Assembly (NCBI RefSeq): GCF_001465835.2
Contig: NZ_CP013661.2
Coordinates: 1,790,501-1,854,500 of the forward strand
Length of the DNA: 64,000 bases
Direction of reading: 5' to 3'
DNA from: Planococcus kocurii
Lineage (GTDB): Bacteria > Bacillota > Bacilli > Bacillales_A > Planococcaceae
Made by a program: the position numbers and the translations under genes. This document shows positions 3,642 to 29,020 of this stretch, in pieces (positions within the stretch are counted from its first letter, which is position 1; each line of letters starts with the position of its first letter). Below the pieces are notes generated by a model. The model did not search any database. It had not been told where the DNA came from and worked only from the letters and a program-made list of their open reading frames with translations.

Positions 3642-4121
3642 GTGAATATCTCAATTATCAGTGTAGGAAAGTTGAAAGAAAAATATTTGAAATCAGGTAT
3701 TGAAGAGTATATAAAAAGACTGGGAAGCTATTCAAAAATAAATGAAATCGAAGTAGCAGACGAAAAAGCACCAGAGCAGTTGAGTGATGCAGACATGGAA
3801 ATCGTCAAAAAGAAAGAAGCCGACCGAATTTTGGCGAAAATTTCCGCTGACGCGTACGTCATTGCCTTAGCGATCGACGGCAAAATGAAAACCTCGGAGC
3901 AGCTCGCAAAAGATATCGAGTCGTTAATGACTTACGGCCGCAGCAAAATTGTCTTTGTGATTGGCGGATCGCTCGGGTTACATGACGAAGTGTTAAAGCG
4001 GGCTGATGAAAAGTTGTCGTTTTCGAAGATGACGTTTCCTCATCAATTGATGAAGTTGATATTGGTGGAGCAGGTTTATCGGGCGTTTCGGATTATGAAG
4101 GGGGAACCGTACCATAAGTAA
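3642..4121 (+). CDS. rlmH: 23S rRNA (pseudouridine-1915-N3)-methyltransferase RlmH
   Basis: 159-residue SPOUT methyltransferase that methylates pseudouridine 1915 of 23S rRNA in the 70S ribosome. It starts at GTG with GGGGGATAAG upstream. The SAM-binding loop [12 protein letters not shown], the [25 protein letters not shown] segment in two parts, and the terminal KGEPYHK are diagnostic. The protein is complete. Its last codons form the integration site of the adjacent cassette, as orfX does for SCCmec in staphylococci. The cassette restores the reading frame and stop, so function should be kept. Confidence 0.97.
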
Positions 4122-5765
4122 GGGTAAAATAAAAAGGGGCCATAATTGGGTCCCTTGTTTATATTTACTAGTAGTCTGATACTGAGTAATCTGCTGATGA
4201 CGATCAGGATACAGTCTATTAAGTAATTCATAAGTGTAATTTTGTTCTTCCATGTTAAAGTCAAAATGAAGATTTATCTTCGTAATTTGACACGTACTGC
4301 CTCGCGGCATATCACCAGTGACTTGGATGTCTTTAATAATGAGACGTATCAATGATTTTTGATCTTCTGACTCTGCTTGAGCTAACACTTCTTGGAAATT
4401 TGTTATCAGCATATAAAGTGCTTCAGAATCGACAGGTGATGTATCAGCTATCGATAGCTGACTCTCAAGATTAAGTAAATTACCTTGAATCTGTTCTTTT
4501 TCCATTTCCAAATGCTTTATCTTTGGGAACAACGAAGAAAGAGTAGGTTCTTTTGCGAGTACATCGAGTAAGTTGTCAATTTTTTTGTGAAGTTGTTTTT
4601 GACTGGTTTCTAAAGCCTTCTTTTCTAAAAGAATAGGCTTTAGTGCATTTGCTCTTTGCAGGTTCACCTGTTGAATAACATCTTTCAAGATGATAGGGGA
4701 AGATACCAAGCTTGATATTAGTTCTAGAGTCTTTGTTTCTGCATAGTCAGCTCTAGTAGAGTATGGGAGACAAGCAGCGCGACCTTTATTTTTATATTGG
4801 CCACATACATAATAGCGATATGAATTTGAACTTTGCGGGACCATCCCGTGACCACAGGAAGGACATTTTAACAGGTTACTTAAAAGATAAGGGCTTTTCG
4901 ATTTGGCAGGCTTACATGTACGGGTTTTACGAATGCTCTGCACGCTGTTCCATTGATCTTCAGAAATAATAGCCTCGTGTATTCCATCAGTAAGAAGAAT
5001 TTCAAAACCTTTTCCTTGTCTCCTCTTTTCACTCCAGTTCTCATATTTATTGAAAGAGATTTTACCAATATAGCGAGGATTGTCAAGTATCTGCTTGACT
5101 CCATTTACAGAAAATAAACAACCTCTTTTTGTCTTGTATCCTTTGGCATTTAATCTGTTACTAATTGCTTTATACCCCAATCCATCTTCTGCCAACTGGA
5201 ATATATCCCTTACAATCACTGCTTCTTCTTCGCAAATGACAAGCTCTTTGTTGATGCTCACATACCCTAAGCAAGCGCCTCCATTGGTTTTACCTTCTTT
5301 AGCCCTTTGAGTCATTCCGAACTTTACTCTTTCAGCGATGGTTTTTCGTTCCATTTCAGCCAATGATCCCATGAATTGAAACATTAGAGCACCTATTGGG
5401 GTAGTGGTGTCAAAGTTTTCTTGAAGAATTATGAGTTTCACATTATGTTTTTCGAGCTCATCGCTTATTTCTAAAGCATCGCGGAGACTTCGCGTTAGCC
5501 TATCCAATTTGTAGACTAAAAGGGTATCGAATTTTCCTTGCTTCGCATCACTCATCATTTTAAGCATTGCAGGACGCTTCTCGATGCTCTTTCCACTGAT
5601 TCCGTTGTCAATGTATTCTTCTACTATTTCTATGTTTAAATGAGCTGCATGAGCCTTTAAAGCACTTATCTGTGCTTCTATACTGAAGCCTTCACGCGCT
5701 TGTTCATCAGTACTTACTCTTACATATATCGCTGCACTATTGGTATCTCTATTCTTCATATCCAT
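3993..5765 (-). CDS. Large serine recombinase (Ccr-like) of the cassette
   Basis: 590-residue site-specific recombinase presumed to integrate and excise the cassette. Domains: resolvase-type catalytic domain about 12-160 with nucleophile S18 in YVRVSTDEQ and the YKLDRLTRS motif; recombinase domain about 165-285; zinc ribbon with C301, C304, C321, C332; coiled coil about 375-440. No ccrA/ccrB pair is present; it resembles single phage-type large serine integrases or distant Ccr proteins. The frame crosses the att core: residues 552-590 are read from the antisense strand of rlmH. In the circular form the frame would continue IWLTITLDRVNK-stop, giving about 563 residues. Seven bases separate it from the XRE gene upstream, so both form an operon. 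Confidence 0.9.
4104..4121 (+). other. attL at the 3' end of rlmH
   Basis: GAACCGTACCATAAGTAA encodes EPYHK-stop of RlmH and shares its last nine bases, CATAAGTAA, with the right boundary. It corresponds in place to the SCC attachment site of staphylococci. Just inside lies AGGGTAAA, inverted at the other end of the cassette. Confidence 0.85.
4131..4163 (+). terminator. Possible terminator after rlmH, inside the cassette
   Basis: AAGGGGCC-ATAATTG-GGTCCCTT can form a stem, followed by the weakly T-rich TGTTTATATTT. It would end rlmH transcription before it runs against the recombinase. The T-run is poor, so confidence is low. Confidence 0.35.
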
Positions 5766-5772
5766 CCTCCTC

Positions 5773-6441
5773 TCATATTCGATTTTTCTCTAGGTTAGTG
5801 ATAAGTAAATCTTTGAAGTCCTCAGAGAATAGTTGTGAATTTTTATAATTCAGTTCCACGTATCTCTTATATACATCATTGTATGAGCCAATAGTCTCTT
5901 TAATAAACAGTGGTGTTTTACTTTCACTCACAGTATTAAGTAATTTAAATTCAAAGTTACTTCTTGCAAGTAACTGAATCATGGAGGCATCATCAATCCA
6001 ACTTTTAGAAATAAAATGTTCAATAAATCTCATAGTATTGCCCTCGAAAACTTGGTAGTATATAGCGCCTAACTTATATTTCTCCTCGTATTGCAAATCT
6101 TCTAAATCCACGTTTTCTTGAACCTCTGTTGTATTTTCGCTTTTCCCAAGATAAAAAGGCTTTGGATTCCCTATGTAATAATCATCGTCGAAGACTTCCA
6201 GAGGAACATTGAAAAACTTAGATAAATTATATATTGCTTTATAAGAAGGACTGACAATGACCCCTCGCTCTACAGATGATAGGGTTTGTGGTGTAACTTC
6301 AATCTCCCTTGCTAGTTCAGCAATGGTAATAACTTTGCCTTCCAATTCCCCTAATTTGTTTCTAAAAGAATTCACTCGCATCCCAATAGGCATAGAAGCT
6401 AACAACTTCAAATTTTCTCCTTCAATTAACATTTTCGTCAT
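5773..6441 (-). CDS. XRE-family helix-turn-helix regulator
   Basis: 222-residue DNA-binding protein. Residues about 20-85 form an XRE/Cro-type helix-turn-helix: VITIAELAREIEVTPQTLSSVERGVIVSPSY in two helices, then YKAIYNLSKFFNVPLEVFDDDYY. The C-terminal 130 residues are not recognised and may sense a signal or form dimers. It lies immediately upstream of the recombinase in the same operon and divergent from a small gene, so it probably controls excision and integration. Likely operators are the repeats at 6501-6526 between the divergent genes. Confidence 0.85.
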   Translation of the reverse strand: MTKMLIEGENLKLLASMPIGMRVNSFRNKLGELEGKVITIAELAREIEVTPQTLSSVERGVIVSPSYKAIYNLSKFFNVPLEVFDDDYYIGNPKPFYLGKSENTTEVQENVDLEDLQYEEKYKLGAIYYQVFEGNTMRFIEHFISKSWIDDASMIQLLARSNFEFKLLNTVSESKTPLFIKETIGSYNDVYKRYVELNYKNSQLFSEDFKDLLITNLEKNRI

Positions 6442-6500
6442 TATAAAAACTCCTCTCTTTACAATTAATCAATTACCTGATAGATTAAAAATAACATACG

Positions 6501-6526
6501 ACATTATAATTGTAAAACATTATAAT
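6501..6526. promoter_or_regulatory. Direct repeat in the XRE divergent promoter region
   Basis: ACATTATAAT occurs twice, at 6501-6510 and 6517-6526, separated by six bases. The second copy could also supply a -10 element, and a ribosome site for the small rightward gene follows at once. It is a candidate operator of the XRE protein; this is inference from position. Confidence 0.45.
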
Positions 6527-6541
6527 TTAGGAGGAAGAAAA

Positions 6542-6968: not shown

Positions 6969-7868
6969 ATGAAGCATAAAATGAGTGATAGTTGGAACAC
7001 ATCAATCAGTAAAAGGAGTAAAAAGAAAGAGTACGCCTCTCTTTTTGAGTTGCAAACGTCTTTTTTAGAAAGTCCTTGTGATGGAATTGTCTTTAGTAGT
7101 GATCACCTTTTAACAGATCAATTCTTGGAGTTGGCAAAGGAAGTGGCTACCTTCTCTTCTGCAGCAAGTCATAAGTCCACTGCTCATAGCGAGATTATAG
7201 GTTTTGGCGCGGTGAGTGTATGGCGTAAACGCAGATACAAAAATACTCGTATGTATCGGGTACGTATTAATCCTTCGATAGGTTGTATGAAACCAGAACA
7301 AATACTGAAATGGATTTTCTTCATATTTGGTCGCTTTGATGGAATCTACATACGCAATATTGATCTAAAAGTAGACATTGATCATCATACTTTTTCTAAG
7401 GTAGCCAAGACCTGCTGGGCTCCTAATTTTAGAAGCCGAGAGAAGAAATACAAGGGAACTATTTATTTTGGCTCATCTACAAGCAAAAGGCAGTTGGTGA
7501 TTTATGACAAGGAACAAGAGTTGATGAAGAAGAGAAAAATTCGCCTCGGTCATACTATGGTTCGTCTAGAAATGAGGTTGAAGTTTTACGAACAAAAGGA
7601 AATACCTTTAACCAGTTTCATGAATTTAGATTTTAAATCCCTTATTCCTTTTAAAGACGTAGTATTAATAGATTCTCCAAAAGAGGATTTTTTAAAGACT
7701 CTAAGAGGAAAGCAGTCATTAGGCTATATTGAAAACGATGTTTACCAAACAATGAAGGCTATTCCTAATTGTTCGAGACCCAGAATCATTAAAGAATTGA
7801 GTTTAAAGGGTAGAGTTGAGTTCATATCTGATATTTTCAATAAACAAATGACTAAGTGGGAGGCCTAG
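6969..7868 (+). CDS. Replication initiator-like protein (Rep_trans-like)
   Basis: 299-residue protein. The central part, GTIYFGSSTSKRQLVIYDKEQEL and the following RLEMRLKF, resembles the core of rolling-circle replication initiators and ICE relaxases of the Rep_trans family (tlyfGs...S...iYdK..E and R-E motifs). Y173-region tyrosines near IYDK would be candidates for the nicking residue, but I cannot fix which. No helicase domain is visible. Three bases separate it from the next gene, so the two are co-transcribed. In an integrative cassette it could allow replication of the excised circle. The family call is moderately sure. Confidence 0.6.
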   Translation: MKHKMSDSWNTSISKRSKKKEYASLFELQTSFLESPCDGIVFSSDHLLTDQFLELAKEVATFSSAASHKSTAHSEIIGFGAVSVWRKRRYKNTRMYRVRINPSIGCMKPEQILKWIFFIFGRFDGIYIRNIDLKVDIDHHTFSKVAKTCWAPNFRSREKKYKGTIYFGSSTSKRQLVIYDKEQELMKKRKIRLGHTMVRLEMRLKFYEQKEIPLTSFMNLDFKSLIPFKDVVLIDSPKEDFLKTLRGKQSLGYIENDVYQTMKAIPNCSRPRIIKELSLKGRVEFISDIFNKQMTKWEA

Positions 7869-7871: not shown

Positions 7872-8438
7872 ATGGACATTGAACAGGCTAAGGAATTAAA
7901 CGAACAAAAACGAAACGAAATGCTTCTTAAGATTCTAGAAGAAGAATATGGAATAGATAGAGATAGAGTTACAGATTTTTTGTATAAAATGATCGAATCT
8001 ATGCCATTCGAATACTATGATAAGCGTGCTCTCAATAGCTTAAAACATGGAATGAATATGAAGACAATTCTTCCATGTAAATTGCAGAGATGTGTCCACA
8101 GTAAGTACTGTGTTATCCATCAAAGCGAGAATACTTCGCATATTGAAATAGGCTCTCCATGCAGATTGGAAATCGAACAATATCTTCAAATTACTGAAGG
8201 TCTTGATAGACAATATGCTAGTAGAGAATTTATGCCTAATACTGATGTCTTAGTCGATTATATAATGGCCACAGTTAAGAGTGATAGAAACAGACGCTTG
8301 ATTGCACTAGAAGGTGGATTTATGGAACGGCCAGGAGTATCGCGTTTAAATAACAAAGGACTATCTTTGGGTTATAGATATTGGGGCTCAACTCGTAGTA
8401 AGGTGAAAAAAGCAATTGACAAGCTCAACGTTGAATAG
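7872..8438 (+). CDS. Hypothetical protein with a four-cysteine motif
   Basis: 188-residue protein read directly after the Rep-like gene (3-bp gap). The N-terminal 65 residues are charged and helical. The middle part has ILPCKLQRCVHSKYCVIH and then GSPCRLE, giving cysteines spaced C-x5-C-x5-C-x17-C, suited to a zinc or iron-sulfur site. A basic C-terminus follows. Not recognised as a family I can name. The coupling suggests a role beside Rep, for example DNA recognition or loading at the origin. Confidence 0.6.
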   Translation: MDIEQAKELNEQKRNEMLLKILEEEYGIDRDRVTDFLYKMIESMPFEYYDKRALNSLKHGMNMKTILPCKLQRCVHSKYCVIHQSENTSHIEIGSPCRLEIEQYLQITEGLDRQYASREFMPNTDVLVDYIMATVKSDRNRRLIALEGGFMERPGVSRLNNKGLSLGYRYWGSTRSKVKKAIDKLNVE

Positions 8439-8590: not shown

Positions 8591-8841
8591 TACTTCTTAT
8601 TCTTTAATTTCTCTATTAACGCTGTTACTTGTACCCGGCGTTCCTCGGTTTCAGTTTCAAGTACGGAAGCTTCTTTAAAGGTACCATCGGGATTCCATTC
8701 GACATCAAGAATATCGCCCTCTTTTGCATAGCTTTCTAATTTAGAGCGTTCAATCAGCTTTTGGTGAGATTCATTGCCTTTTTCCACTAGAACGGCAAAC
8801 TCTTCATCATATCGATCCAGGGTGTACTTATTTGACTTCAT
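8590..8841 (-). CDS. DUF3006 family protein
   Basis: 83-residue acidic protein with the pattern KYTLDRYDEEFAVLVEKG...GDILDVEW typical of DUF3006. This family is commonly encoded next to secreted ComEC/Rec2-like metallo-hydrolases, and here its ATG overlaps the end of such a gene by 14 bp, which indicates translational coupling. No signal peptide. The biochemical role is unknown; an accessory or regulatory role for the hydrolase is the usual guess. Confidence 0.8.
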   Translation of the reverse strand: MKSNKYTLDRYDEEFAVLVEKGNESHQKLIERSKLESYAKEGDILDVEWNPDGTFKEASVLETETEERRVQVTALIEKLKNKK

Positions 8842-10528
8842 GGATTAGCGCTCCTTTAGAATCATAGAGTTTAGCTGGATCGCCACTGTTTAACCATATG
8901 TTGGCTGTGGTCCATTTTAAGTAGTTACCGCCTGACTTTGCATTTGGTCCACTGGTGACATGGACATTCGCTCCTGCTTTTAGCGTATAGGTTGGGAACG
9001 TGAATGACTGGTTTCCTTGGACAGAAACGAGCTTCCACCCAGCCATTGCCACATCGGTTGTTCCGACGTTTTGAATCGAAACGATTTCAGTCGACAAGTC
9101 TTTCTTCACGACCTGCAGCTTGCCTGTGGTGCCGGCTGATGGTGGCGTTGGCGTAGTGGTCGGCGGTGTCCATGCTTTTGCACTTACGCTGTGTGCTTGG
9201 CCGTTTGTTGTCACTGTCACATCCCCGGAAACAGCTGTCGAATAGATTTTCGATTTTACAGTTGTCAGTCGAGAAACAACCTCTTTATGCGGGTGACCGT
9301 AGGAGTTGTCTTTTCCGTAGGATAGAACGGTACCCATAGGGTAAACCTCGTTGATGAAATTGGACGATGAACTGGTATTAGATCCGTGGTGTCCAGCTTT
9401 CAAATAGGTGCTCTTCAAGTCATATTTAGGTAGCATCGTATTTTCGATGGCAACATCCGCATCGCCCGTCAACAAGAAGCTGACTTTTCCGTATTTGGCT
9501 TTCAAGACAATTGATGCGTCGTTATTGTCGCTAGCTTTAGAGTCCACATTTAGCACTTGAACGCCCAAAACACTGTCGAATGGCAGTTTCTGTCCCATTT
9601 TTGGTACTTCAAACGCAATGTTCTTTGTATCAATCAACTGAAGCAGTTCATAGTACGTATCGGTAGTATGCACTTTGCCTGAATCGTAGAACTTGGTAAC
9701 AGGGAAGCTGTTCAAGACAGAAATTAATCCGCCAATATGATCAGCATCCGGATGCGTCGCGACAACAGCATCGAGTTTGATCACGCCTTTAGATTTCAAG
9801 AATGATACGACTTTCGGTCCTTGAGACTTTGTGCCGCCGTCAATCAGCATGTTCTTGCCGTTGCCGGATTGAATCAGAATAGAGTCACCCTGGCCCACAT
9901 TAATGAAATGAACCTTAGCCTGCTTATTGCCAGTCTCTTTCATAACCATGGCACGTGTTAAGAAAGCCGAGAGCTGCCCTTTGGTGATGGTCTCATTCGG
10001 GCGGTATGTTCCATCTAAATTCCCTACCGTAATGTTTGCATGGATGATGCGTTTGATATACGGGTAGGCTTTCATGGTTGGGCTAAGGTCTTTAAATGAT
10101 TTAGTCGATTCGGTCGTGAGGTTAAAGGCACGCGAAATAAAAATGGCCATTTCGCCGCGGTTGACGATGCCTTTTGGCCGGTACGTCCCGTCTGGGTAAC
10201 CGGAGATCACACCGGCTTTCACAGCGGAGTTAATGTAGCCAGACGCGGGCGAAGAAGCTGGCACGTCTTTGAATGGCGTACTGGTGCGCGTGCCATTCAA
10301 TTTGAGGGCTTTGGCAATCATGATCGCCGCAGATTCACGGGTAATCGGTGTATCCACCCCATACTTCGAACTGGTACCCACCACGCCTTTTTCATACAGA
10401 TAAGCGATGTCGTCATAGAATCGGTGATTCACGGGAACATCGCTGTACGTGGCGGCTTCTGCATTGTTCATTGGCGCCAGTGATAACAACAAGACAATGG
10501 ACAACACGAACATTAGTATTTTTTTCAC
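8828..10528 (-). CDS. Secreted SLH - metallo-hydrolase - lamin-tail protein
   Basis: 566-residue extracellular protein. Residues 1-25 are a signal peptide ending at NAEA. Three S-layer-homology repeats follow, about 27-195 (YSDVPVNHRFYDDIAYLYEKG, FKDVP, FKDLSP), which attach it to the cell wall. Residues about 205-445 are a ComEC/Rec2-like metallo-beta-lactamase domain with the metal motif THPDADHIGG, the second site TGDAD and KAGHHGS. The last 100 residues resemble a lamin-tail domain. It is probably a secreted nuclease or phosphodiesterase acting on extracellular DNA or nucleotides. It is translationally coupled to DUF3006. Base use is somewhat richer in GC than neighbours, suggesting a separate origin within the cassette. 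Confidence 0.88.
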   Translation of the reverse strand: MKKILMFVLSIVLLLSLAPMNNAEAATYSDVPVNHRFYDDIAYLYEKGVVGTSSKYGVDTPITRESAAIMIAKALKLNGTRTSTPFKDVPASSPASGYINSAVKAGVISGYPDGTYRPKGIVNRGEMAIFISRAFNLTTESTKSFKDLSPTMKAYPYIKRIIHANITVGNLDGTYRPNETITKGQLSAFLTRAMVMKETGNKQAKVHFINVGQGDSILIQSGNGKNMLIDGGTKSQGPKVVSFLKSKGVIKLDAVVATHPDADHIGGLISVLNSFPVTKFYDSGKVHTTDTYYELLQLIDTKNIAFEVPKMGQKLPFDSVLGVQVLNVDSKASDNNDASIVLKAKYGKVSFLLTGDADVAIENTMLPKYDLKSTYLKAGHHGSNTSSSSNFINEVYPMGTVLSYGKDNSYGHPHKEVVSRLTTVKSKIYSTAVSGDVTVTTNGQAHSVSAKAWTPPTTTPTPPSAGTTGKLQVVKKDLSTEIVSIQNVGTTDVAMAGWKLVSVQGNQSFTFPTYTLKAGANVHVTSGPNAKSGGNYLKWTTANIWLNSGDPAKLYDSKGALIHEVK

Positions 10529-11283: not shown

Positions 11284-11862
11284 ATGATCATTGGATATGC
11301 TCGAGTTTCTACAAAAGACCAATCCTTAGATGTGCAAGTAGATGCTATTACTAAGTACGCCTTAGAAATCGGAGAGAAAGTAGAGATTTTCCTGGAAAAA
11401 GAAAGTGGCGGTAAGAAGAACAGACCAGAACTTCACACAGCGCTGCGCATGGCTAGAAAAGGTGACTCATTTGTTATTTATAAACTTGACCGTTTAGCGA
11501 GATCGACTCGACAATTATATGAAGTAACAGATGAGTTAGAAAAAAGGGGGGTAGATTTTGTTAGTTTAAATGACAAAATTGATACTAAAACAGCAGCTGG
11601 GAAAGCAATGTTTGGCATGCTCGCTGTCTTTGCTGAATTTGAACGTTCCATTATTCAAGAAAGAACTGTAGCAGGTCTTCAGGCAGCCCGTAAGCGAGGT
11701 AGAATAGGTGGCAGAAAGCCCCTAGATACGAAGACTAAAAGAAGTATTAAGACACTCTATGAAGCCGGAGAAGGGGCGCAGGATATTGCTCAACGCTTTC
11801 ATATTGGCAGAAGTACAGTTTATAAAGTGTTAAAAGAATCAAACAAAGAGGAACAAGTTTAA
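11284..11862 (+). CDS. Small serine resolvase/invertase
   Basis: 192-residue recombinase of the Tn3 resolvase / DNA invertase group. Catalytic domain 1-135 with S9 in GYARVSTKDQ, the YKLDRLARSTRQL motif and FAEFERSIIQERT; C-terminal helix-turn-helix about 150-185 (GEGAQDIAQRFHIGRSTVYKVL). GGAGG lies before ATG. There is no transposase or terminal repeat beside it, so it is more likely a multimer resolvase of the cassette or an ancestral plasmid than part of a Tn3 transposon. It could also invert a local segment; no inversion site was seen. Confidence 0.92.
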   Translation: MIIGYARVSTKDQSLDVQVDAITKYALEIGEKVEIFLEKESGGKKNRPELHTALRMARKGDSFVIYKLDRLARSTRQLYEVTDELEKRGVDFVSLNDKIDTKTAAGKAMFGMLAVFAEFERSIIQERTVAGLQAARKRGRIGGRKPLDTKTKRSIKTLYEAGEGAQDIAQRFHIGRSTVYKVLKESNKEEQV

Positions 11863-11966: not shown

Positions 11967-12536
11967 GTGTCGAACTTTAGTCATTTAGATATGCAACTAG
12001 CTTTAGGAATTCAAGTATCTACCCTAAGAAAGTACGCGATGGCTTTAGAGCAACATGGATATATATTTAATAAGAATAATCAAGGTCACAGGCTATATAC
12101 AGAAAAGGATGTGGATGCATTTTTAAGGTTAATTTCTTATAAGAAATTAAATGGAATGACGATTGATAGGAATGCGAAAGCTGTGGTGGAGTGGATCAGA
12201 GAAAGTATAGCGGAGGACGCTATGGAGAATTATTTTGAAAGAGAACAAGATACTCATTCTTTGATGACAATGACACTAGAAGGTTTTGTCCAACTTCAAT
12301 CTGAGCACATTAAAACTCAAAGCAAGCAGTTGGAAAACCAAGAATTGATAGTTAATCAACAAAAAGAAATATCTAATAACATCATGTCTGCTAACAATGA
12401 ACTGAAGAAGACATTAGAAAGAATGAATAAATTGATTGTTTTACAGCAAGAACTTATAGCAAGAACATTAGGGGAAATCGAGAATTCCGAGGAAATGGTA
12501 GGCATTCTAACTCTTAAAAAGAAAGGCATTAGATAA
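11967..12536 (+). CDS. MerR-like HTH protein (DUF3967-like)
   Basis: 189-residue protein starting at GTG behind AAGAGGTG. Residues about 8-60 form a MerR-type winged helix (LALGIQVSTLRKYAMALEQHGY...GHRLYTEKDVDAFLRLI). Residues about 95-170 form a long coiled coil rich in Q, N, K and L. This architecture is common on Bacillus plasmids and integrative elements and is assigned to the DUF3967 group. It may act in plasmid-like maintenance, segregation or gene control. Repeats at its start region suggest autoregulation. Confidence 0.7.
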   Translation: MSNFSHLDMQLALGIQVSTLRKYAMALEQHGYIFNKNNQGHRLYTEKDVDAFLRLISYKKLNGMTIDRNAKAVVEWIRESIAEDAMENYFEREQDTHSLMTMTLEGFVQLQSEHIKTQSKQLENQELIVNQQKEISNNIMSANNELKKTLERMNKLIVLQQELIARTLGEIENSEEMVGILTLKKKGIR

Positions 12537-12614: not shown

Positions 12615-13217
12615 TTAAATATGTCCTTTCTCGTTCAGAGAGATATACCTCTCATTACCGATAATAATGTGATCTAGTATTTCAATCCCTACGATATTTC
12701 CGGCTTCTACTAGCCTTTTTGTGACTTGAATGTCTTCAGGACTTGGTTCTGGATGTCCACTAGGATGATTATGAGCTACTATAGCGCTTGCACAGCTACA
12801 GCGTATTAATTTCTTGAAAGTCTCTCTGGGATGCACAATAGATGCATTGAGGGAGCCGACGAAGACGGTTTCTTTAAACAAAACCTCGTTCTTTATATTT
12901 AATCCTAATACGACAAAGTGTTCCTGGGTCAAATACTGCATCTCCTTCAAGTATTCAAAAGCGTGCTGTGGTGAGCGGATAGTATATCGCTTTTCAATTG
13001 GGCACGGATTCATGCGAGCCAATTTCAGAGCTGCCAGAATCTGTTTTGACTTTACTTTACCTATGCCTCGAATATTCATTAGTTCCTCTTCTGTCACTAA
13101 CAGCAGATCTTGTAGAGAAGGGTAGAGCTTAAAGATTTCATCAATATAGCTATTTTCTTTCTCACGAAGTGTTGTAGCCAGTAAAGATTTGAACGTCTCT
13201 CTATTGAATGTAGTCAT
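12615..13217 (-). CDS. RadC-like JAB-domain protein
   Basis: 200-residue protein of the RadC family common on mobile elements. A helix-hairpin-helix lies at about 45-65 (RGIGKVKSKQILA), and the JAB/MPN metalloprotein motif is complete: H149-N-H151-PSG, followed by PSPEDI with D162. The true molecular function of RadC is unsettled; mobile copies are thought to help DNA recombination or anti-defence. AGGAGG is placed before ATG 13217. A terminator-like hairpin at 13252-13278 separates it from the upstream gene on the same strand. Confidence 0.88.
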   Translation of the reverse strand: MTTFNRETFKSLLATTLREKENSYIDEIFKLYPSLQDLLLVTEEELMNIRGIGKVKSKQILAALKLARMNPCPIEKRYTIRSPQHAFEYLKEMQYLTQEHFVVLGLNIKNEVLFKETVFVGSLNASIVHPRETFKKLIRCSCASAIVAHNHPSGHPEPSPEDIQVTKRLVEAGNIVGIEILDHIIIGNERYISLNEKGHI

Positions 13218-13351: not shown

Positions 13352-13396
13352 ACAAAAAGCCCATTAACTGTTGGCATACAGTTAATGGGCTTTTAT
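13352..13396. terminator. Strong bidirectional terminator
   Basis: AAAAAGCCCATTAACTG and CAGTTAATGGGCTTTT form a perfect stem around TTGGCATA. It overlaps the end of the leftward gene 13393-14139. Confidence 0.85.
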
Positions 13397-14139
13397 TGAT
13401 TTTCAAGAGACTGTTCTGAATTCTTATAGGCATCTCTTAAATGGAGCAGGTCCTGAATGAAGTCGGAAGCCTGAACTTTTGATAAATCTTTACTAGTATT
13501 TACTCGGTACTTTTCTTGCATTAACCCTTTAGCAAGTTCAGCTGATAGGCCGATCTCTCTAACGATGCGAAAGATGGCCTTGAGTTGCCGTTCAGTAGCC
13601 GGATCAAGAGCAACTTCTATTTCACTTGTGTTGGGTAAGCTTACTAAGTCTAGGGCAAAGAGATGGGTGGCTCCTAAAGCGGACAATACTGCATCAACAA
13701 GGGCTCTCTTCTTTGCAGTCTTTAAAATCATATTAACAGCGTTGTATACATCGATTTCCTTGAATAGTCCCTCTTTTGAATTGCAGGAGCCGATTCCTTC
13801 AGCTTCGACAATGCCGGACTTTTTATCAATCAAGACCACTTTAACTTCATATGAAAAGACACCTAACTCCCAATTTTCGGTTCGTTGAATTACCTCCGCT
13901 AATTTAGACAACCCGTATGCATTACAGAGCTTTTCTGCACCAGGCTTTAACAGAACAGCTTTGGAGTAGTTCTGAAAATGTCCGTAATCAATCCCTTCTA
14001 CCATTTCATTGGCTAGGAAATCTTGCATCCTAGATTGTTCCGTCTTAAGCGAAGTAGTAATTGCCGTCTCTCTCTTGCGCCATTTTCCAGTCGTTACCGC
14101 CTTGAGCAATTCCGTATTTGCTTTTAAATACTTCTTCAT
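13393..14139 (-). CDS. Phage-type protein with PGAEKL motif, possible ssDNA-annealing protein
   Basis: 248 residues from ATG 14139, chosen because AGGAGGTCTAGTA precedes it; the open frame continues to 14301 without a ribosome site. Notable are DYGHFQNYSKAVLLKPGAEKLCNAYGL, EAEGIGSCNSKEG, and AVNMILKTAKKRALVDAVLSALG. The DYG...LKPGAEKL pattern and the K-x-A-x-K-R-A-x-V-D-A segment occur in many Firmicutes phage and cassette proteins that I associate with Rad52-like single-strand annealing, but I cannot prove the family. The C-terminal part (about 175-235) looks like a separate helical domain. The next gene downstream is radC, which would suit a recombination role. Confidence 0.55.
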   Translation of the reverse strand: MKKYLKANTELLKAVTTGKWRKRETAITTSLKTEQSRMQDFLANEMVEGIDYGHFQNYSKAVLLKPGAEKLCNAYGLSKLAEVIQRTENWELGVFSYEVKVVLIDKKSGIVEAEGIGSCNSKEGLFKEIDVYNAVNMILKTAKKRALVDAVLSALGATHLFALDLVSLPNTSEIEVALDPATERQLKAIFRIVREIGLSAELAKGLMQEKYRVNTSKDLSKVQASDFIQDLLHLRDAYKNSEQSLENQ

Positions 14140-14288
14140 TACTAGACCTCCTATTGATAGATTGGTTTTCAATGCAATTGTTTTGAGTACGTTGCTTCTA
14201 GCATCACCTTCTTTCTTTAATCTAAGTGCTAACCTCCCTTCCTGGAATGCGCTCCTCTCACCACGCCTGTCATCTCTGTAAATAAATA

Positions 14289-14318
14289 GACCACCCTCCA
14301 ATATGGGAGAGTGGTCTA
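14289..14318 (-). terminator. Leader hairpin upstream of the annealing-like gene
   Basis: AGACCACCCTCC-AATAT-GGGAGAGTGGTCT stem with a weak T-run (TATTTATTT) on the minus strand. It sits about 150 bases upstream of the start at 14139, so it could be an attenuator or a terminator of an antisense transcript. Confidence 0.5.
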
Positions 14319-17445: not shown

Positions 17446-17660
17446 TTAACAGTAAAACATTGAAGAGCCTCTTTTTCCCATGTCCCCCCATAGAAGAGCA
17501 ATATAAGATAATTGAAATTCTTCATTCATTCGACGTTAGGCTTCAAAATGAAAAGCAATATGTAGTATGCCTTCATCTGCTAAAAAGAGGTTTGATGCAG
17601 GAACTTTTAACAGGTAAAACTCGTGTTCAAACCAACAACCCTGAGGTGATTCTTTCATGA
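17436..17660 (+). CDS. HsdS C-terminal conserved repeat in the shifted frame
   Basis: 74 residues, MGVINSKTLKSLFFPCPPIEEQYKI... through KRGLMQELLTGKTRV, are the second conserved helix of HsdS and match the central repeat of the preceding gene (PPIxEQ-KI-EIL...KKGLMQQLLTGK). Its ATG lies within the stop region of the truncated hsdS (overlap 17436-17445), so translational restart could make it as a separate fragment. No own Shine-Dalgarno site except the G-run. Best read as the split end of hsdS. Confidence 0.8.
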   Translation: MGVINSKTLKSLFFPCPPIEEQYKIIEILHSFDVRLQNEKQYVVCLHLLKRGLMQELLTGKTRVQTNNPEVILS

Positions 17661-20608: not shown

Positions 20609-21337
20609 TCAGAGAGTAAGCAGTGGGCCGTTCACCCGTAGCCACTCTTTCCGTTGTTCATAGTCAGGCAAAATAGAGGCCACAAACCGCCAAAATTCCT
20701 GTGAATGGTTAGGGTGTTTGATATGGGCAAGTTCATGGACAAGTACGTAGTCGATGATCGCTATAGGAGCCATTACAAGCCGCCAGTTTAAGTAGATGGC
20801 ATCAGTAGGGGTGCAAGTTCCCCAGCGCATTTTCTGTTCTTTTAGGGCGATTTTAGATGGTTTTACTAACATCTTAGAAGAATAGATTTCGGCTCTTTCC
20901 TTTACTTTCTTTTCTCCATTTTTAATGTACCACTGCTTGAACTGTTTGTTCATTAGATCTCTCTTTTCCAAAGGGGAAAGTGAGGAAGATACTTTCGCAA
21001 TAAATTTCCCTTGTGAGTAGTGAAGAGAAGGTGCTGCCACTTCTGTTCCTTTTATGACCTTCAATCGATATTGGCGGCCTAAGTAAGCGAACTTTTCTCC
21101 GCTGCAGAATTCTTTCACTGGCACGTTTCCGTTTATTTCACTAAGTTCGTTCCACTTCCGTAATATCCATGGTGCTTTTTTATATAAAGCATGCTGCAAG
21201 GTTTCTTCAGTGATTCCTGTAGGAGCCATTACGTTTACTCCATCCAGCCATTCGACTGTGACAGATATATCCGTTTTCTTTTCTAGATATTCAAGGGTGT
21301 AATCAATCGTTGTTGTACCATATACCAGTTTAGGCAT
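20609..21337 (-). CDS. YgjP-type metallopeptidase-like protein (DUF45/WLM-like)
   Basis: 242 residues. The C-terminal third contains the zincin motif HELAH (201-205) with the third ligand H211 (HPNHSQEFW), preceded by RWGTCTPTDAIYLNWRL, the signature of YgjP/DUF45. The N-terminal part is a small beta-rich domain. The family is frequently encoded beside type I restriction-modification systems, as here, where it converges on hsdR with a 21-bp gap. The role in defence, perhaps controlled proteolysis of restriction subunits, is not established. Confidence 0.88.
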   Translation of the reverse strand: MPKLVYGTTTIDYTLEYLEKKTDISVTVEWLDGVNVMAPTGITEETLQHALYKKAPWILRKWNELSEINGNVPVKEFCSGEKFAYLGRQYRLKVIKGTEVAAPSLHYSQGKFIAKVSSSLSPLEKRDLMNKQFKQWYIKNGEKKVKERAEIYSSKMLVKPSKIALKEQKMRWGTCTPTDAIYLNWRLVMAPIAIIDYVLVHELAHIKHPNHSQEFWRFVASILPDYEQRKEWLRVNGPLLTL

Positions 21338-21654: not shown

Positions 21655-22767
21655 ATGTCTAGGATTGGGAGAAATGAGTTATGCCCTTGCGGCAGTGGAA
21701 AGAAATATAAAAAATGTCATCTAAATATAAAGAAAATTTCTGAGTTATCAAATAATCTTTCTATAGAGTGCCTTTGCGGGAGTAGCTTAAATCCTATTAA
21801 TTGCTGTGGTTCATTTCTTTCATCAACTAGAAGGAAAAACCCTTCAGTGCGGCAAAGTGAGTTTTCTGTAGATAATAGGTATCAAGAGGAATACTCTGGC
21901 AAGGTATATTTTGCTTTATTATCGACTCCAAGAAGGGAATGGAATGCCTTTCGAAATTTTTATTTATATGGTATTGAGATAAATGGACGTTTTCTTAGAC
22001 CCAAAACCTTAGATTTTGTTCTTGAGCTGCAAACTGAAGAAGTACATCAATGGAATGTGCGATGCAACCTCGATTACCAAACGGGAGCCATAATTAAAGT
22101 TCGAATCAAAGATAATATCGAAAAGAATAAATTGCATATTGCTGACTGTACTATTTCAGTTTCTAAGCCACTTAATCGGATAGAAGTGCCACACATAAGT
22201 ATTTTAAACCACGCTTATCTAAGGCTGTTTCACCATACTTCAATTTCCGGTCATGAAGGAATAACAAATAGTAAATCCATTTGGTCATCTCCTTACGACC
22301 TTCAAGGGAGTACCAGAGAGTTAAATACAACCCGCTTTACATATTTCACTGACCTACCTGAACTCAAATATGAAAGTGATTTGTTTGCTGTTGCAATGCG
22401 TGATATATCTCAAGCAGCTTTTAGAACTGATGATGAAACACAGTTGTCCTTTGTAGATATATACAATCAACCAGCAAACAAACGGGAAAAACGACTAATT
22501 TTTTATCTTGATATCAATCTGATAGCTCCTGTTCCATCTGTTTACCATAACCAAGAAGGAACTAAATATATAGAATTTTTTCATCCTCATATTTTTAGAA
22601 TTGCGGCCCATCCGGAAACAATCATTCCAATTGAACAATTTAAGGATGGCTGGAAAATTAATAAGGATTTTATTACTCCAGCAATGATTGATATTTTCCC
22701 CATTGCAAACGGGAACAGTCTTACTGATCTTTCAAAAATATATCAGGACAGATATATTGAGCCGTAG
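21655..22767 (+). CDS. SEC-C zinc-motif protein with unknown C-terminal domain
   Basis: 370 residues. The N-terminus is a SEC-C motif, ELCPCGSGKKYKKCH (C10, C12, C21, H22), which binds zinc. A second cysteine group follows, ECLCGSS...NCCGS (C39, C41, C50, C51), like a degenerate second SEC-C copy. The remaining 310 residues have no family I recognise; they are rich in beta-strand patterns, without transmembrane segments. SEC-C domains often recruit partner proteins or ribosomes and are seen in anti-phage loci. A strong ribosome site (AAGGAGGAG) is present. Single-gene unit between the metallopeptidase and the PIN gene. Confidence 0.75.
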   Translation: MSRIGRNELCPCGSGKKYKKCHLNIKKISELSNNLSIECLCGSSLNPINCCGSFLSSTRRKNPSVRQSEFSVDNRYQEEYSGKVYFALLSTPRREWNAFRNFYLYGIEINGRFLRPKTLDFVLELQTEEVHQWNVRCNLDYQTGAIIKVRIKDNIEKNKLHIADCTISVSKPLNRIEVPHISILNHAYLRLFHHTSISGHEGITNSKSIWSSPYDLQGSTRELNTTRFTYFTDLPELKYESDLFAVAMRDISQAAFRTDDETQLSFVDIYNQPANKREKRLIFYLDINLIAPVPSVYHNQEGTKYIEFFHPHIFRIAAHPETIIPIEQFKDGWKINKDFITPAMIDIFPIANGNSLTDLSKIYQDRYIEP

Positions 22768-22906: not shown

Positions 22907-23854
22907 TTAGTAATCCATACTAGTCGATATATGATCACCAGTATCCCAAGTGTATTCACACTTAGGACACCTTAAGTGATAATATTGACCCATCAAAATT
23001 GAATCTGAATTAATATGTACTTCATTATCACAATCTGGATTTTTACAATCACAAAAATATTCATCGGTCAGATATTGATACCTATCAGCATTAGAAGTGA
23101 CAATTATTTTTACCAGATTTTTGTAAGAAGCTTCTTCCGTATCATTATATTTGAGTAGTTTCTGTGCTGCTTTTAAGTTGTTAAAAAACTCAACTTCGAC
23201 CTCTTCAATATATTTTTCTAAATTTGAATGTATTTTGCTAGGGTTGTTTGGTTCACTGAAGTCTTTTGAATTACATGATAGGAAGGCTACCTTATTATAA
23301 TTGTTGCGATGTTTTTTTAAGTAGTCAATGATTGTAAAGAAAATCACGGCATCTGTACTTTCATTTTTGCTTGATTTCTTGTTCGTGTTATCTTTCTTTA
23401 GCTCCATGGAAAAGAATGGAGGTTGTTGCTCTATTGCAAAGTCTACAACTAAACGGTCTATATCAGGATTTCTTTCAATAATTACAGCAAAACTATTAAT
23501 AATTCTGTCGATGTGTTTTGCTCTTACTGCATAAGTATAGCGATAGGCTCTCAAAGAAATTTTTCTAATAGTATTTAGTTGATGTAATAATTCTTCCTTT
23601 TGATGTTGTTCTGGTACATATTTAAGGAGGTCATTATATTTTATGAAATCTAAAAGAATTTGGTCTTCGTATTGCTGAATCTTATTATTTTTAAGGTGAT
23701 TCCACTCAGCTAGAACTTGTTGCGGTAACATTAGATGAGTAAATCCATTTAAACGCATTAGGAAGGTGTAAAAGCTATCTTCCGAATATTTACCAGGCTC
23801 TAGAAAATCTATAAGTATGTTTGTATCAACGACTAATGCATTCTGTTTGTCCAT
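22907..23854 (-). CDS. PIN-domain (DUF4935-like) nuclease with C-terminal zinc ribbon
   Basis: 315 residues from ATG 23854, chosen for GAGGAG upstream; a start at 23875 is possible. The N-terminus NALVVDTNILIDFLEPG carries the first PIN aspartate (D10) and further acidic sites follow in NESTDAVIFFTIIDYL and SCNSKDF, the arrangement of the DUF4935 branch, which are probably Mg-dependent RNases. The last 60 residues have CDCKNPDCDNE and LRCPKCEYTW, a four-cysteine zinc ribbon. No VapB-like partner is adjacent; the next gene upstream is a 104-residue helical protein. An abortive-infection or RNA-decay role is inferred. Confidence 0.8.
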   Translation of the reverse strand: MDKQNALVVDTNILIDFLEPGKYSEDSFYTFLMRLNGFTHLMLPQQVLAEWNHLKNNKIQQYEDQILLDFIKYNDLLKYVPEQHQKEELLHQLNTIRKISLRAYRYTYAVRAKHIDRIINSFAVIIERNPDIDRLVVDFAIEQQPPFFSMELKKDNTNKKSSKNESTDAVIFFTIIDYLKKHRNNYNKVAFLSCNSKDFSEPNNPSKIHSNLEKYIEEVEVEFFNNLKAAQKLLKYNDTEEASYKNLVKIIVTSNADRYQYLTDEYFCDCKNPDCDNEVHINSDSILMGQYYHLRCPKCEYTWDTGDHISTSMDY

Positions 23855-23974
23855 GTTAATTAATCTCCTCGTCATATTACTGAATCAACTTAAATCTTGA
23901 TTTTAATGGTATTATTTACATCACTTAGTATCCTTGCTTCTCGTGAGGATAAGATGGGTAAAGGAACTCGTATA

Positions 23975-24558: not shown

Positions 24559-26010
24559 TTGAATAAAGAGGGATTATATAATTTAGTTGAGTGGTTTTTA
24601 GAACTGCCAAAAGAAACAGAAATAGTTGAGTTCAAAGTAAATAATGATCAACCATCGCTGATTGGAGAATATATATCAGCGCTCGCTAACTCTGCTTGTC
24701 TACATGAACAAAAATTTGGTTACCTGGTATATGGTATAAATGACGATCAAGAAGTAGTAGGTACTGCGTTTAAACCTTCAGCTACCAAACATAAACAACA
24801 AGAATTAGAAAGTTGGCTCTCAATTAAACTTTCTCCCAAAACAGATTTCGAATTTTTTGAGTTTGACTACAATGGATTTGAATTAGCAATCATTAAAATT
24901 GACGCTGCAATAAGCAGACCTATTTCTTTTGATGGTACTGCTTATATTAGAGTTGGTTCTTATAAAAACAATTTATCGCACTATCCGGATAAGGAAAGAA
25001 AAATTTGGACTAAAACTAATAATCAACCTTTTGAAGAACTGGAAGCATTAGGGTCGCTCAACGAAGATGAAGTATTAAAATTGTTAGATTACCCTTCTTA
25101 TTTTAGTTTATTAAATGTAAGTCTTCCCACCGATAAGTATGGGATTCTAAAGAAATTTGAAGAGGAAAAATTGATTGAAAAAGTTGGAAAGAGCTATAAT
25201 GTTACAAACTTGGGAGCTATTCTTTTTGCTAAAGATTTAACAAATTTCCCCAAGTTAATTCGTAAGGCAATTAGAGTAATTATTTATAAAGGAAAAAATC
25301 GCCTCCATACTGTTAAAGAACAGGCCGATGGCAAAGGATACGCCTTAGGCTTCGAAGGATTGATCAGCTATATTAATGACCAACTTCCTACTAATGAAGA
25401 GATAGGGGCAGCCTTTAGAAAAGAAGTGAAAATGTATCCTGAATTAGCTATTAGAGAGGCAGTAGCTAACGCATTAATCCATCAAGACTTTCATGAGCGT
25501 GGTACAGGTCCCATGATTGAAATTTTCTCTGATAGGATTGAAATTAGTAACCCAGGTAAGCCACTGATGAGTACTCTTCGCTTAATTGACCATCGACCTC
25601 AATCTAGAAATGAACAATTAGCCTATTTTATGAGAAGGCTTAATATTTGTGAGGAAAGAGGCAGTGGTATTGATAAAATAGTTAATTTAGCAGAAGAGTA
25701 TCAACTGCCTGCGCCCAAATTTACAGAGAATGAAAATGCAATGCAGGTCACTTTGTATGCTTACAAAAATCTCAACGATATGAATAGAGATGACAAGATA
25801 AGAGCCTGTTATCAACATTGTTGCCTAAAGCATATCTCTTCCGAAAATATGACAAATCAGAGCTTGAGAGAACGATTGAATGTACGACAACAAAACTATT
25901 CTATTGTCTCCCGAATAATAAACGATACTATAGGCGAAGGGCTGATAAAGCCTTATGATCCAGATAGTAATTCTAAGAGACATGCTAAATATGTACCTTT
26001 TTGGGGATAA
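24559..26010 (+). CDS. Schlafen/AlbA_2 - ATP-binding protein
   Basis: 483 residues starting at TTG (AAGGTGA upstream). Residues about 10-140 are an AlbA_2/Schlafen domain with TEIVEFKVN (E24, K26), FGYLVYGI and a nucleotide-binding-like TAYIRVGSY. Residues about 295-390 form a GHKL-type ATP-binding part with N-box EAVANALIHQDFHERG, the NPGKP loop and the ERGSGIDKI loop. A winged helix closes the protein (about 410-483). Such proteins act as transcription regulators or in anti-phage defence. It is followed by a tandem repeat array rather than by another gene. Confidence 0.85.
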   Translation: MNKEGLYNLVEWFLELPKETEIVEFKVNNDQPSLIGEYISALANSACLHEQKFGYLVYGINDDQEVVGTAFKPSATKHKQQELESWLSIKLSPKTDFEFFEFDYNGFELAIIKIDAAISRPISFDGTAYIRVGSYKNNLSHYPDKERKIWTKTNNQPFEELEALGSLNEDEVLKLLDYPSYFSLLNVSLPTDKYGILKKFEEEKLIEKVGKSYNVTNLGAILFAKDLTNFPKLIRKAIRVIIYKGKNRLHTVKEQADGKGYALGFEGLISYINDQLPTNEEIGAAFRKEVKMYPELAIREAVANALIHQDFHERGTGPMIEIFSDRIEISNPGKPLMSTLRLIDHRPQSRNEQLAYFMRRLNICEERGSGIDKIVNLAEEYQLPAPKFTENENAMQVTLYAYKNLNDMNRDDKIRACYQHCCLKHISSENMTNQSLRERLNVRQQNYSIVSRIINDTIGEGLIKPYDPDSNSKRHAKYVPFWG

Positions 26011-26044
26011 GTTTATTTATTAAGATGTAAATTAGTAACTTATT

Positions 26045-26361: not shown

Positions 26362-26490
26362 GAAAATTGAAACAGAAAAAAATCAATAAACCTTTGTATT
26401 AAGGTAGTATTTTGAATTTTAATGAGTAAATGGCAATATGCAAATGTTTAACTTAAAAATCTCTCTTTAAATAGAAAATGAAACAGTAGC

Positions 26491-27466: not shown

Positions 27467-28771
27467 ATGCTAGATAAAAAAATGTTAGAACTCAGGTTGA
27501 GCAGAATAATAAATTTATATGATAACTTAGATGAATTAATAGACTCTCTTCCAGTTAAATTACCAAAAGGTGCGAAAGAGCAAGTAAAAAAGGTCATATT
27601 CAATAATAAAGAAATAAAGGAAGTCATCTCAGGAATAAAAGAAAGAAGACCGCCAAGACTTATTATGGTAGGAAGAACAGGGGTAGGAAAGAGCAGTCTA
27701 ATTAATGCGATTTTTGGTAAGTACATAGCAAAGACAAGTCCTGTAGAAATCGGAACTACTCAACTGAGCAGGTATAACTATGAGGCTGACGGAGATATTC
27801 TATTTGAAGTAATAGATACAAGAGGTATTGCGGAATCTTCAAATGAAAGAGAAACAACAGCAGAAGAAGATTTAAAAAAAGCAATAGAAGATTTCGATCC
27901 AGATGCTGTTCTTTTCCTATCCGATGCTACACAACGCGCAAGAATGGATGAAGATGTAAATTATATAAAAAATGTATATGAAGAAATCGGCATTAAAATT
28001 CCGTTAGTTACTGTATTGACACACGTAGATGATTTAGAACCATCGAGAATAAAGGAACCTGACAAGTATACAAGTTCAAAATTAAGAAATATAGAAGATA
28101 AAAAGCAACAGATGGAAAACTTATTAAAAAATTTAAAGGTAGATAGTTCAACGGTGATACCAGTTTCGACATATATAGAATGGGACAGAGAAGATCCGCA
28201 CTTATTAAGCGAAGAAGAACAACAAGATCTGCATATTGATTTTGATGGAAGATACAATATGGATGAACTGATAGATTTTTTAGAAAGTAATATAGATTTT
28301 CGAGCTTCTATTTATTTAATGATGACAACAAGAATCGACAAAGCAGTAAGAAAAATTTCGAACATTCTTGTTAACAGCTTTGCTATTGCAAGTACTACTA
28401 TAGCACTGAGCCCCATTCCATTCAGTGATATTGTTATACTTGTTCCTTTACAGTTGATATTAGTTACATTTATTGCTTATTTAAGTGGCGCTGACATCGA
28501 TAAGGAAAGTGCAAAAGAGTTTTTACTTAGTATTGGTGGAGTTGGAATATTGGGGTATGGTTTAAGAACTTTAGCTCAACAAGGGAGTAAGTTTCTTAAT
28601 TTAGTTATACCGGGGACAGGAAGTGTAGTGAGTAGTACGATAGCTTTTTCTGGCACATATGCCATTGGGAAAACTGCTCAAGCATACTACATAGATAAAA
28701 AAAGAAAGGAAGAATTAGAAACAATAATGAAAAAAGCTAGCGAAGAAGGTAAAGACAAAGCTCCTGATTAA
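27467..28771 (+). CDS. Membrane-associated Era-like GTPase
   Basis: 434 residues. G1 GRTGVGKS (69-76), G2 GTT (96-98), G3 DTRG (117-120), and G4 THVD (185-188, a variant of NKxD) define a complete GTPase. The N-terminal 60 residues are helical. The C-terminus has hydrophobic segments about 300-340 and 350-405 that look like membrane-inserting hairpins (DUF697-like), followed by a charged helix. GGAGG stands before ATG. Such proteins resemble dynamin-like or immunity-related GTPases, some known in anti-phage defence. It is the last gene before the right end of the cassette. Confidence 0.85.
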   Translation: MLDKKMLELRLSRIINLYDNLDELIDSLPVKLPKGAKEQVKKVIFNNKEIKEVISGIKERRPPRLIMVGRTGVGKSSLINAIFGKYIAKTSPVEIGTTQLSRYNYEADGDILFEVIDTRGIAESSNERETTAEEDLKKAIEDFDPDAVLFLSDATQRARMDEDVNYIKNVYEEIGIKIPLVTVLTHVDDLEPSRIKEPDKYTSSKLRNIEDKKQQMENLLKNLKVDSSTVIPVSTYIEWDREDPHLLSEEEQQDLHIDFDGRYNMDELIDFLESNIDFRASIYLMMTTRIDKAVRKISNILVNSFAIASTTIALSPIPFSDIVILVPLQLILVTFIAYLSGADIDKESAKEFLLSIGGVGILGYGLRTLAQQGSKFLNLVIPGTGSVVSSTIAFSGTYAIGKTAQAYYIDKKRKEELETIMKKASEEGKDKAPD

Positions 28772-28932
28772 GAAGAGTGAGTTAGTGAAATTAAATTCTA
28801 AGATAACTAATATGGGAATTAATCATAAAAAATCACTTAATTGTAATTCCTTGCACAATAAGAGGTCGTGTCTATACTGAAATTTTTTATTAGATTAGTT
28901 AGAACGGATATTTTAATAAAATAGATTTAGAA

Positions 28933-28971
28933 TTTTAAAGAGAGGCAGTGGATAACTGCCTCTCTTTAAAA
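28933..28971. terminator. Perfect 17-bp hairpin at the right end of the cassette
   Basis: TTTTAAAGAGAGGCAGT and its exact complement around GGATA. It lies 32 bp inside attR and shields the cassette from the chromosome in both directions. Confidence 0.85.
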
Positions 28972-28979
28972 TTTATTTG

Positions 28980-28987
28980 TTTACCCT
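28980..28987. repeat. Right terminal inverted repeat TTTACCCT
   Basis: Exact complement of AGGGTAAA at 4121-4128 beside attL; the similarity extends weakly (ATAAA/TTTAT). Eight bases alone could be chance, but the place next to both att sites makes it meaningful, as in SCC elements. Confidence 0.55.
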
Positions 28988-29002
28988 ATCCAATGTTATG
29001 GT

Positions 29003-29020
29003 GAGCCATATCATAAGTAA
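29003..29020 (+). other. attR, degenerate copy of the rlmH 3' end
   Basis: GAGCCATATCATAAGTAA reads E-P-Y-H-K-stop, with GGT (G) before it. It differs from attL at three third-codon positions. The peptide is identical to the RlmH end although the DNA differs, as expected if this end came from the rlmH gene of another host. It supports integration by recombination at CATAAGTAA. Confidence 0.85.

Follow-up and report, generated by a model that had tools for sequence, protein, structure and literature searches.

The rlmH site and its cassette

In this study, we examined a 64-kb stretch of Planococcus kocurii DNA (the whole stretch is called the window) in which an element of about 24.9 kb, resembling the staphylococcal cassette chromosome (SCC), is integrated at the 3′ end of rlmH, and we relate its boundaries to the open reading frame (ORF) of its Ccr-type (cassette chromosome recombinase) large serine recombinase. 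The rlmH end at the left attachment site (attL) reads GAACCGTACCATAAGTAA and the second copy, at the right site (attR), reads GAGCCATATCATAAGTAA (Table 1). Both encode EPYHK followed by a stop codon and differ at three wobble positions, as a preliminary description of this DNA had noted, and the pattern GARCCNTAYCAYAARTAA (EPYHK-TAA) has zero-mismatch matches in the window only at these two ends, its 4 other matches carrying 3 mismatches each. Considered together with related loci, these data make it probable that the cassette was placed in the last rlmH codons by its own Ccr-type recombinase at a GA dinucleotide, and that the recombinase tail was exchanged on integration.

The cassette at rlmH proposed in the preliminary description has two true ends, and comparison with cassette-free relatives bears this out. 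In 19 of 46 genomes of the genus, rlmH and the DUF1846 gene are 145-398 bp apart, representing an empty site, and the DNA after 29021 aligns with the DNA directly 3′ of rlmH in these empty genomes, which come from species of the genus other than the window's own. The spacing is 1.9-25 kb in 12 genomes (25,250 bp in the window itself; G028 is also one of them), and DUF1846 lies elsewhere or on another contig in three; a DUF1846 match was obtained in 34 of the 46 genomes and not in the other 12. Matches to rlmH were found in all 46, in pieces in G040 and broken in G028, where the match at G028:C13:3344431-3344894 is only piecewise and contains stops. A second EPYHK-like end precedes the flank in 7 of 10 other occupied genomes fetched with DUF1846; none was found before the flank in G013, G020 and G033 with the pattern used, which is synonymous by design and finds EPYHK-like ends only. 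Second ends, empty sites and spacings across the genus together mark the site, as judged from sequence, as a cassette hotspot; the window's cassette is presumably mobile. One genome (G014, locus L071) carries a composite island with two attachment (att) sites in tandem after rlmH.

Inside both ends lies an 8-bp inverted repeat, each arm exactly 15 bp from the GA of its own end (4104-4105 and 29003-29004). Related cassettes carry their own repeats at matching places, namely AGAGGCAAAA in class A, (A/G)GGTAAA in class B and a CACA motif in class C, and by this half-site motif the window's cassette belongs to class B. Equal distance from GA and class-wise recurrence rule out a chance repeat and strengthen the earlier observation of it. 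According to the available text of PMC10581047, CcrAB recombination requires a central GA; the crossover position used here rests on that statement for CcrAB and is transferred to the window's recombinase by inference. If the crossover is at GA, the cassette supplied the bases that follow it at attL, and the host those that follow it at attR. Hence, 4106-4121 were most likely brought in by the cassette, and 29005-29020 are most likely the host's own displaced rlmH end, an assignment that draws on the published central GA, the GA-centred repeats and the EPYHK-type far ends of relatives with an altered RlmH.

In these relatives, seven genomes (L085, L086, L087, L088, L090, L092 and L093), attL reads EPYIF, EPYIFQG, EAYIF or EPYLV, and all seven have a second complete rlmH ending in EPYHK about 4 kb inside the cassette; two rlmH matches occurred only in these seven among 30 genomes searched whole. 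EPYHK-type DNA stands at the far end in four (L085, L087, L088 and L092), beyond the spare rlmH and on the same contig, while in the other three a search of the contig with a pattern that finds EPYHK only gave no such end. RlmH ends changed at attL support a crossover to the left of those codons. As the seven cassettes form one clade in the recombinase-core tree (98/98 support), their association with a spare rlmH counts as one origin. A changed RlmH end is not always accompanied by a spare copy: none is present in four Paenibacillus genomes whose RlmH ends read EPYRL, EPYRF or EPYRR. Literature searches covering titles and abstract openings returned no description of a second rlmH in this group.

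A recombinase frame that crosses attL

The recombinase gene has no stop codon within the integrated cassette: its ORF passes attL into antisense rlmH and ends at 3993. Its best NCBIfam model is CcrB (335 bits, E 9e-100, residues 3-487), followed by CcrC (284 bits), both scores being under the 900-bit equivalog cut-offs, which by profile score marks the protein as a divergent single Ccr. Thus, the serine recombinase reported earlier at the left end is confirmed, while the accompanying view that it is of a different kind, without ccrAB, is not supported, since CcrB and CcrC are its best models. In a tree of 82 recombinase cores, the class-A rows fall in a 44-row group, class B including the window makes up a 29-row group, and class C (4 rows) forms one group; the window's recombinase sits on a long branch, at 54% to its nearest row.

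To place this frame in context, GTDB genomes were scanned with an alignment of 9 recombinases (A1), and the best 80 of 462 relatives, to which 14 loci of the genus and family of the window were added, gave 94 loci, in 78 of which the recombinase is convergent with rlmH and within 400 bp of it. Left out were 11 loci without rlmH, 2 in which it is more distant (L124, L159), 3 in which the gap exceeds 400 bp (L045, L050 and L053, which likewise run through att) and 3 duplicates, so that 75 remain. The recombinase ORF crosses GA in 72 of these 75, window included, the three phases accounting for 66, 5 and 1; the recombinase of L103 is frameshifted, and that of L067 crosses GA with its N-terminal part broken. 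Between core end and GA, the recombinase frame is stop-free in 73/75 loci, the other two frames in 5 and 1. Upstream of the half-site this tail is coding-like, with 9125, 4523 and 16615 differences at codon positions 1, 2 and 3, counted over 469 non-independent pairs of 71 tails with duplicates kept. Class C uses another reading phase across att, and near it in the tree lie non-overlapping recombinases (L124/L159, L148/L153) and the phase-0 L158, on a long branch. This distribution suggests that the overlap arose more than once, and one old overlap with later losses would also be compatible with it.

Circle junctions were built by script, right ends being fetched and cassette ends joined at GA to give a reconstructed attP. 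From 34 pairings read, we dropped L086/L176 (other contig), L149/L165 and L160/L192 (not nearest), leaving 31; in L085, L087, L088 and L092 the nearer att-like match is the spare rlmH end and was passed over. In the dropped L165 (G302:C3:196280, Virgibacillus subterraneus), the sequence before the farther att site reads like antisense rlmH. The reconstructed circle tails are short and conserved within recombinase class in 29 of 31 pairs. All 13 class-A tails stop 4 amino acids (aa) past GA (TVVI in 10, TVII, SVVI and TVSI in one each), all 12 class-B tails read T(V/I)..(D/C/Y)RV with a stop 7-15 aa past GA, and all four class-C tails stop after 19-21 aa, three of them ending (V/I)(F/Y)I.I. The remaining two pairs are L083, which stops early, and L140, which joins a class-A recombinase to a class-B right end and is probably a composite. 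In the window, the recombinase would end MVRF-TITLDRVNK in the reconstructed circle, compared to ...FISPL in the integrated form. For eight right ends of other Planococcus cassettes used as controls, among them one of class-B type (G039), the tails read in the same phase span 3 to 54 codons.

The integrated tails of classes A and B are host-encoded P.NPK.PINLL-like peptides, and a proline occurs within the first 8 aa past GA in 30/30 integrated versus 9/30 circle tails (all classes). Of 16 listed recombinases located away from rlmH, 8 have FSVLIAI-like ends and 2 have FSILIDL/FTVFLEL; the L148 and L153 recombinases end in IDIVI and FKIAI, and a CcrB-like recombinase of S. aureus ends in LFLPQTLYLTI. 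Circle-junction tails of class A, and most of those of class C, are similar in style to these ends; class-B tails are not. Further, attP-like class-A junctions with 1-3 mismatches are present in 9 of 50 assembled genomes; five are right ends already paired (L137, L139, L141, L143 and L154) followed by another cassette-like end, and L295 and L296 are attP-like tandem junctions with recombinase-tail fragments in circle form of 94 and 35 aa.

The S. aureus protein comes from the plasmid records, four of which contain a related recombinase, three being from Staphylococcus (35-36% identical to the window's); it is annotated 'recombinase family protein' and comes second in a pair that follows a DUF927 gene, the gene order by which we would call it CcrB-like. 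The fourth record, from a Paenibacillus plasmid (L204), has no clean full recombinase frame. Phage records gave no recombinase match at 1e-60. In viral contigs, 80 of 548 recombinase relatives were kept. A search for the class-C recombinase in 398 genomes of the phylum gave none at 1e-130 and is uninformative without a positive control.

Possible roles of the predicted tail exchange

With the predicted native 3′ end of the recombinase gene left at the far cassette end, integration should swap the C-terminus of the enzyme. We propose that the Ccr-type recombinase would insert the cassette into the last rlmH codons, crossing over at the central GA, and that this would give rlmH a synonymous end and a new terminator-like hairpin, leave the old rlmH end at attR, and strand the last recombinase codons with their stop codon 25 kb away at the other end. 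As for the hairpin, 1 was found where shuffled sequences give 2.4, which is weak taken alone, and hairpins are predicted in most of 29 class-B right halves, not in that of L093. The element-coded tail would be the working C-terminus, such that the enzyme made from the circle would be native throughout and the one made from the integrated form a chimera broken by proline, whose tail may damp or redirect the enzyme once inserted, providing a built-in directionality control. We give somewhat less than even odds to the view that the swap matters to the enzyme in this way, as a brake or direction switch after integration. A wider and tentative proposal is that, for serine recombinases of rlmH cassettes across Bacillota, their own integration may serve as a molecular memory, with the form of the enzyme, and so its direction or activity, reporting whether the cassette is in or out without a separate directionality factor: insertion would swap the native C-terminal strand for a proline-rich antisense-rlmH peptide, and the sister clade with altered RlmH and replacement rlmH would tie the host to its cassette.

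Three other explanations concern the locus as a whole. Read-through by decay, in which this copy lost its stop codon and became immobile, could draw on the interrupted hsdS of the same cassette, but the recombinase core is intact over 490 aa and the same open frame exists in 72/75 non-duplicate loci; a stop-codon loss peculiar to the window is thus ruled out and decay in general is scarcely credible. The right end had been taken in the preliminary description for a piece of another species' rlmH carried along by the element, for which the three wobble differences speak. Nevertheless, its similarity to rlmH is limited to the last codons, a GA crossover would leave host DNA there, and the conserved chromosomal flank follows the right tail without a break, the arrangement found in empty relatives. 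Given the GA-centred repeats, the published GA and the altered-RlmH relatives, the assignment is probably to be reversed, a foreign tail being very improbable and set aside as a likely reading; the synonymous ends are then reinterpreted as cassette-supplied on the left and host-original on the right. Finally, the Rep_trans protein might be a MobT-type relaxase working with a helper conjugation system, and the element would then be better described as an integrative mobilizable element. The PF02486 match of the protein would allow this, as MobT relaxases presumably fall in that family. However, the family label does not separate Rep from relaxase, Rep matches occur in only 7/100 loci, and no conjugation gene is among the 19 scanned cassette proteins; even with transfer by a conjugative plasmid reported for enterococcal cassettes, 6 of 32 of which have a rolling-circle rep (PMC6222049, available text), we consider this unlikely.

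The exchange of the tail itself could be a harmless by-product: with attP placed where the recombinase gene ends, the half-sites would be kept for binding and whatever tail follows would be irrelevant. We regard this neutral explanation and directional control as about equally likely, each falling a little short of an even chance. Several observations weigh against a functional swap. For classes A and B, DNA binding alone could account for the conservation of the circle tail, which falls inside the DNA half-site, itself conserved, and half-site conservation extends past the stop codon in both (TAAGAGGCAAAA in class A). Half-site changes do affect the recombinase sequence: in the last 8 codons before GA they fall at codon position 1 (335, 1 and 27 at the three positions) and mostly alter the amino acid, because the wobble of rlmH dictates them. 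The host-coded extensions differ greatly in length, from 11 to 552 nt, and two relatives (L083 and L096) stop before att. A hydrophobic end is missing in 6 of the 16 listed recombinases not at rlmH, in L124 and L159, and in the class-B circle tails. Tandem cassettes yield still other tails, and G044 and G034 have a common cassette left end and yet differ at three tail bases. Moreover, attP was not matched in viral contigs with two patterns, no circle was seen, and the attP-like junctions in genomes contain no more than part of a recombinase gene. On the other side, irrelevance of the tail does not readily explain open frames in 72/75 loci with 66 in one phase, a coding-like tail upstream of the half-site, class-C tails (19-21 aa, 4 cases only) that extend beyond the likely half-site with protein-like similarity, or the similar ends of some recombinases not at rlmH.

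Annotation of integrated copies by gene finders would yield a recombinase with a host-encoded end, so the tails in databases and of cloned enzymes may be wrong. If the swap is functional, cassette chromosomes, the movers of staphylococcal methicillin resistance, would include members with a recombination-made switch.

Cargo and comparison with known systems

We scanned 19 cassette proteins against Pfam, small ORFs being left out (Table 1). The Rep-like gene of the preliminary description is indeed present, and the absence of mec likewise stands, no mec-type match being found among the scanned proteins; the defence-rich load is borne out only in part, by one type I restriction-modification set with an interrupted hsdS, the other PADLOC matches being weak. 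RadC matches occur in 27 of the L082-L161 loci and recur in class-B relatives, compared to which the window has several kb extra between recombinase and RadC. A tandem array at 26044-26340 (66-bp unit, ~4.4 copies, also a 133-bp period) lies in a 1.45-kb stretch without long ORFs. Rfam at gathering scores gave no match in window positions 1-36000.

Table 1. Coordinates of the cassette, its attachment sites and its genes in the window
Feature	Positions	Strand	Remarks
rlmH	3642..4121	+	159 aa, ends GEPYHK; bases after 4105 probably cassette-supplied
Ccr-type large serine recombinase	3993..5765	-	590 aa, no stop codon inside cassette
Host-encoded part of recombinase ORF	3993..4103	-	36 codons and stop from antisense rlmH; ends ...FISPL
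attL core	4104..4121	+	presumed crossover dinucleotide GA at 4104-4105 (GA from PMC10581047, available text)
Inverted repeat, left arm AGGGTAAA	4121..4128	+	class-B half-site motif, 15 bp from GA
Terminator-like hairpin, putatively given to rlmH by cassette	4134..4156	+	inside recombinase reading frame
HTH_3 protein	5773..6441	-	just upstream of recombinase, same strand; tblastn matches in 20/100 loci
Rep_trans protein (rolling-circle initiator or relaxase type)	6969..7868	+	PF02486, E 1.4e-8; matches in 7/100 loci
Unknown protein after Rep	7872..8438	+	no Pfam match
SLH, metallo-beta-lactamase fold (ComEC-like) and lamin-tail protein	8828..10528	-	domain matches
Small serine resolvase	11284..11862	+	
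Protein of unknown function	11967..12536	+	no Pfam match
RadC-family protein	12615..13217	-	51-73% identity to the RadC found in each of 27 related loci
Conserved class-B cassette protein of unknown function	13393..14301	-	18/100 loci
HsdM	14832..16313	+	
HsdS, interrupted	16303..17660	+	two frames, 16303-17445 and 17436-17660; 380 aa, then 74-aa continuation
HsdR	17657..20587	+	
YgjP-like metallopeptidase	20609..21337	-	
SEC-C motif protein	21655..22767	+	
PIN_12 protein	22907..23875	-	
Schlafen AlbA_2 protein	24559..26010	+	
MMR_HSR1/AIG1-type GTPase	27467..28771	+	
Predicted native 3′ end of recombinase gene	28973..29002	-	TITLDRVNK-stop, left at far cassette end
Inverted repeat, right arm TTTACCCT	28980..28987	+	15 bp from GA
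attR core	29003..29020	+	GA at 29003-29004; probably host's original rlmH end
Chromosomal flank and DUF1846 gene	29021..30876	+	adjoins rlmH in empty relatives

The cassette as such belongs to a known kind, and the tail swap is a variant that we did not find in print: literature searches of titles and abstract openings returned no description of recombinase genes overlapping att in this group. With SCC and SCCmec (CcrAB or CcrC), the window shares the last-codon rlmH target, a Ccr-type large serine recombinase, direct repeats, inverted repeats around a central GA and variable cargo with restriction genes. In staphylococci, the ccr genes are located at a distance from att. The window, in contrast, has Planococcus as host and only one Ccr, a divergent one encoded beside attL by a gene that extends across att, and it carries a Rep_trans gene instead of the cch helicase/CcPol operon, which is not among the 19 scanned proteins; under the strict staphylococcal SCCmec definition (host and mec gene) it falls outside, being from Planococcus and having no mec-type match.

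The published comparisons that follow draw on the available parts of the cited texts. A helicase operon (cch/DUF927 or D5-type) before ccr gave no Pfam match in the scanned proteins. Staphylococcal SCC always encode a helicase there (PMC10061031), while DUF927 is found in 20 enterococcal cassettes, not in every one (PMC6222049), and we therefore do not treat a helicase as required for the wider group. The Enterococcus cassette chromosome shares with the window the rlmH site, Ccr recombinases and inverted repeats in the att sites, and its rolling-circle rep genes compare with the window's Rep_trans; it differs in having a ccrAB pair, and the available text makes no mention of a recombinase frame crossing att (PMC6222049). 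Islands with polymerase-single-stranded DNA-binding protein (Pol-SSB) primases in Bacillota, including Planococcus antarcticus, are alike in their mostly rlmH site, large serine recombinase, composite islands and restriction-modification cargo, with empty sites confirmed for 3 of them, but are defined by a polymerase-SSB-helicase operon (PMC10061031) that was not found among the window's scanned proteins.

The closest parallels to the tail exchange come from farther afield. In archaeal 'suicidal' SSV-type (Sulfolobus spindle-shaped virus) integrases, the att site also lies inside the recombinase gene and integration changes the product (PMC8371274), a likeness for which the window's attP inside the gene was reconstructed, not observed. 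These are tyrosine recombinases split into two inactive parts (PMC8371274), whereas the window encodes a serine recombinase whose catalytic core stays whole and whose last residues are replaced. As suicidal integrases were called exclusively archaeal in a 2021 review (PMC8371274), the present case, if the tail swap has a function, would be their bacterial serine-recombinase counterpart. Engineered fusions of serine integrases with recombination directionality factors are likewise described as using a protein fused to the integrase to set the direction of recombination (PMC5737554); those fusions are artificial, while the change of tail in the window is natural and predicted to follow from the reaction itself.

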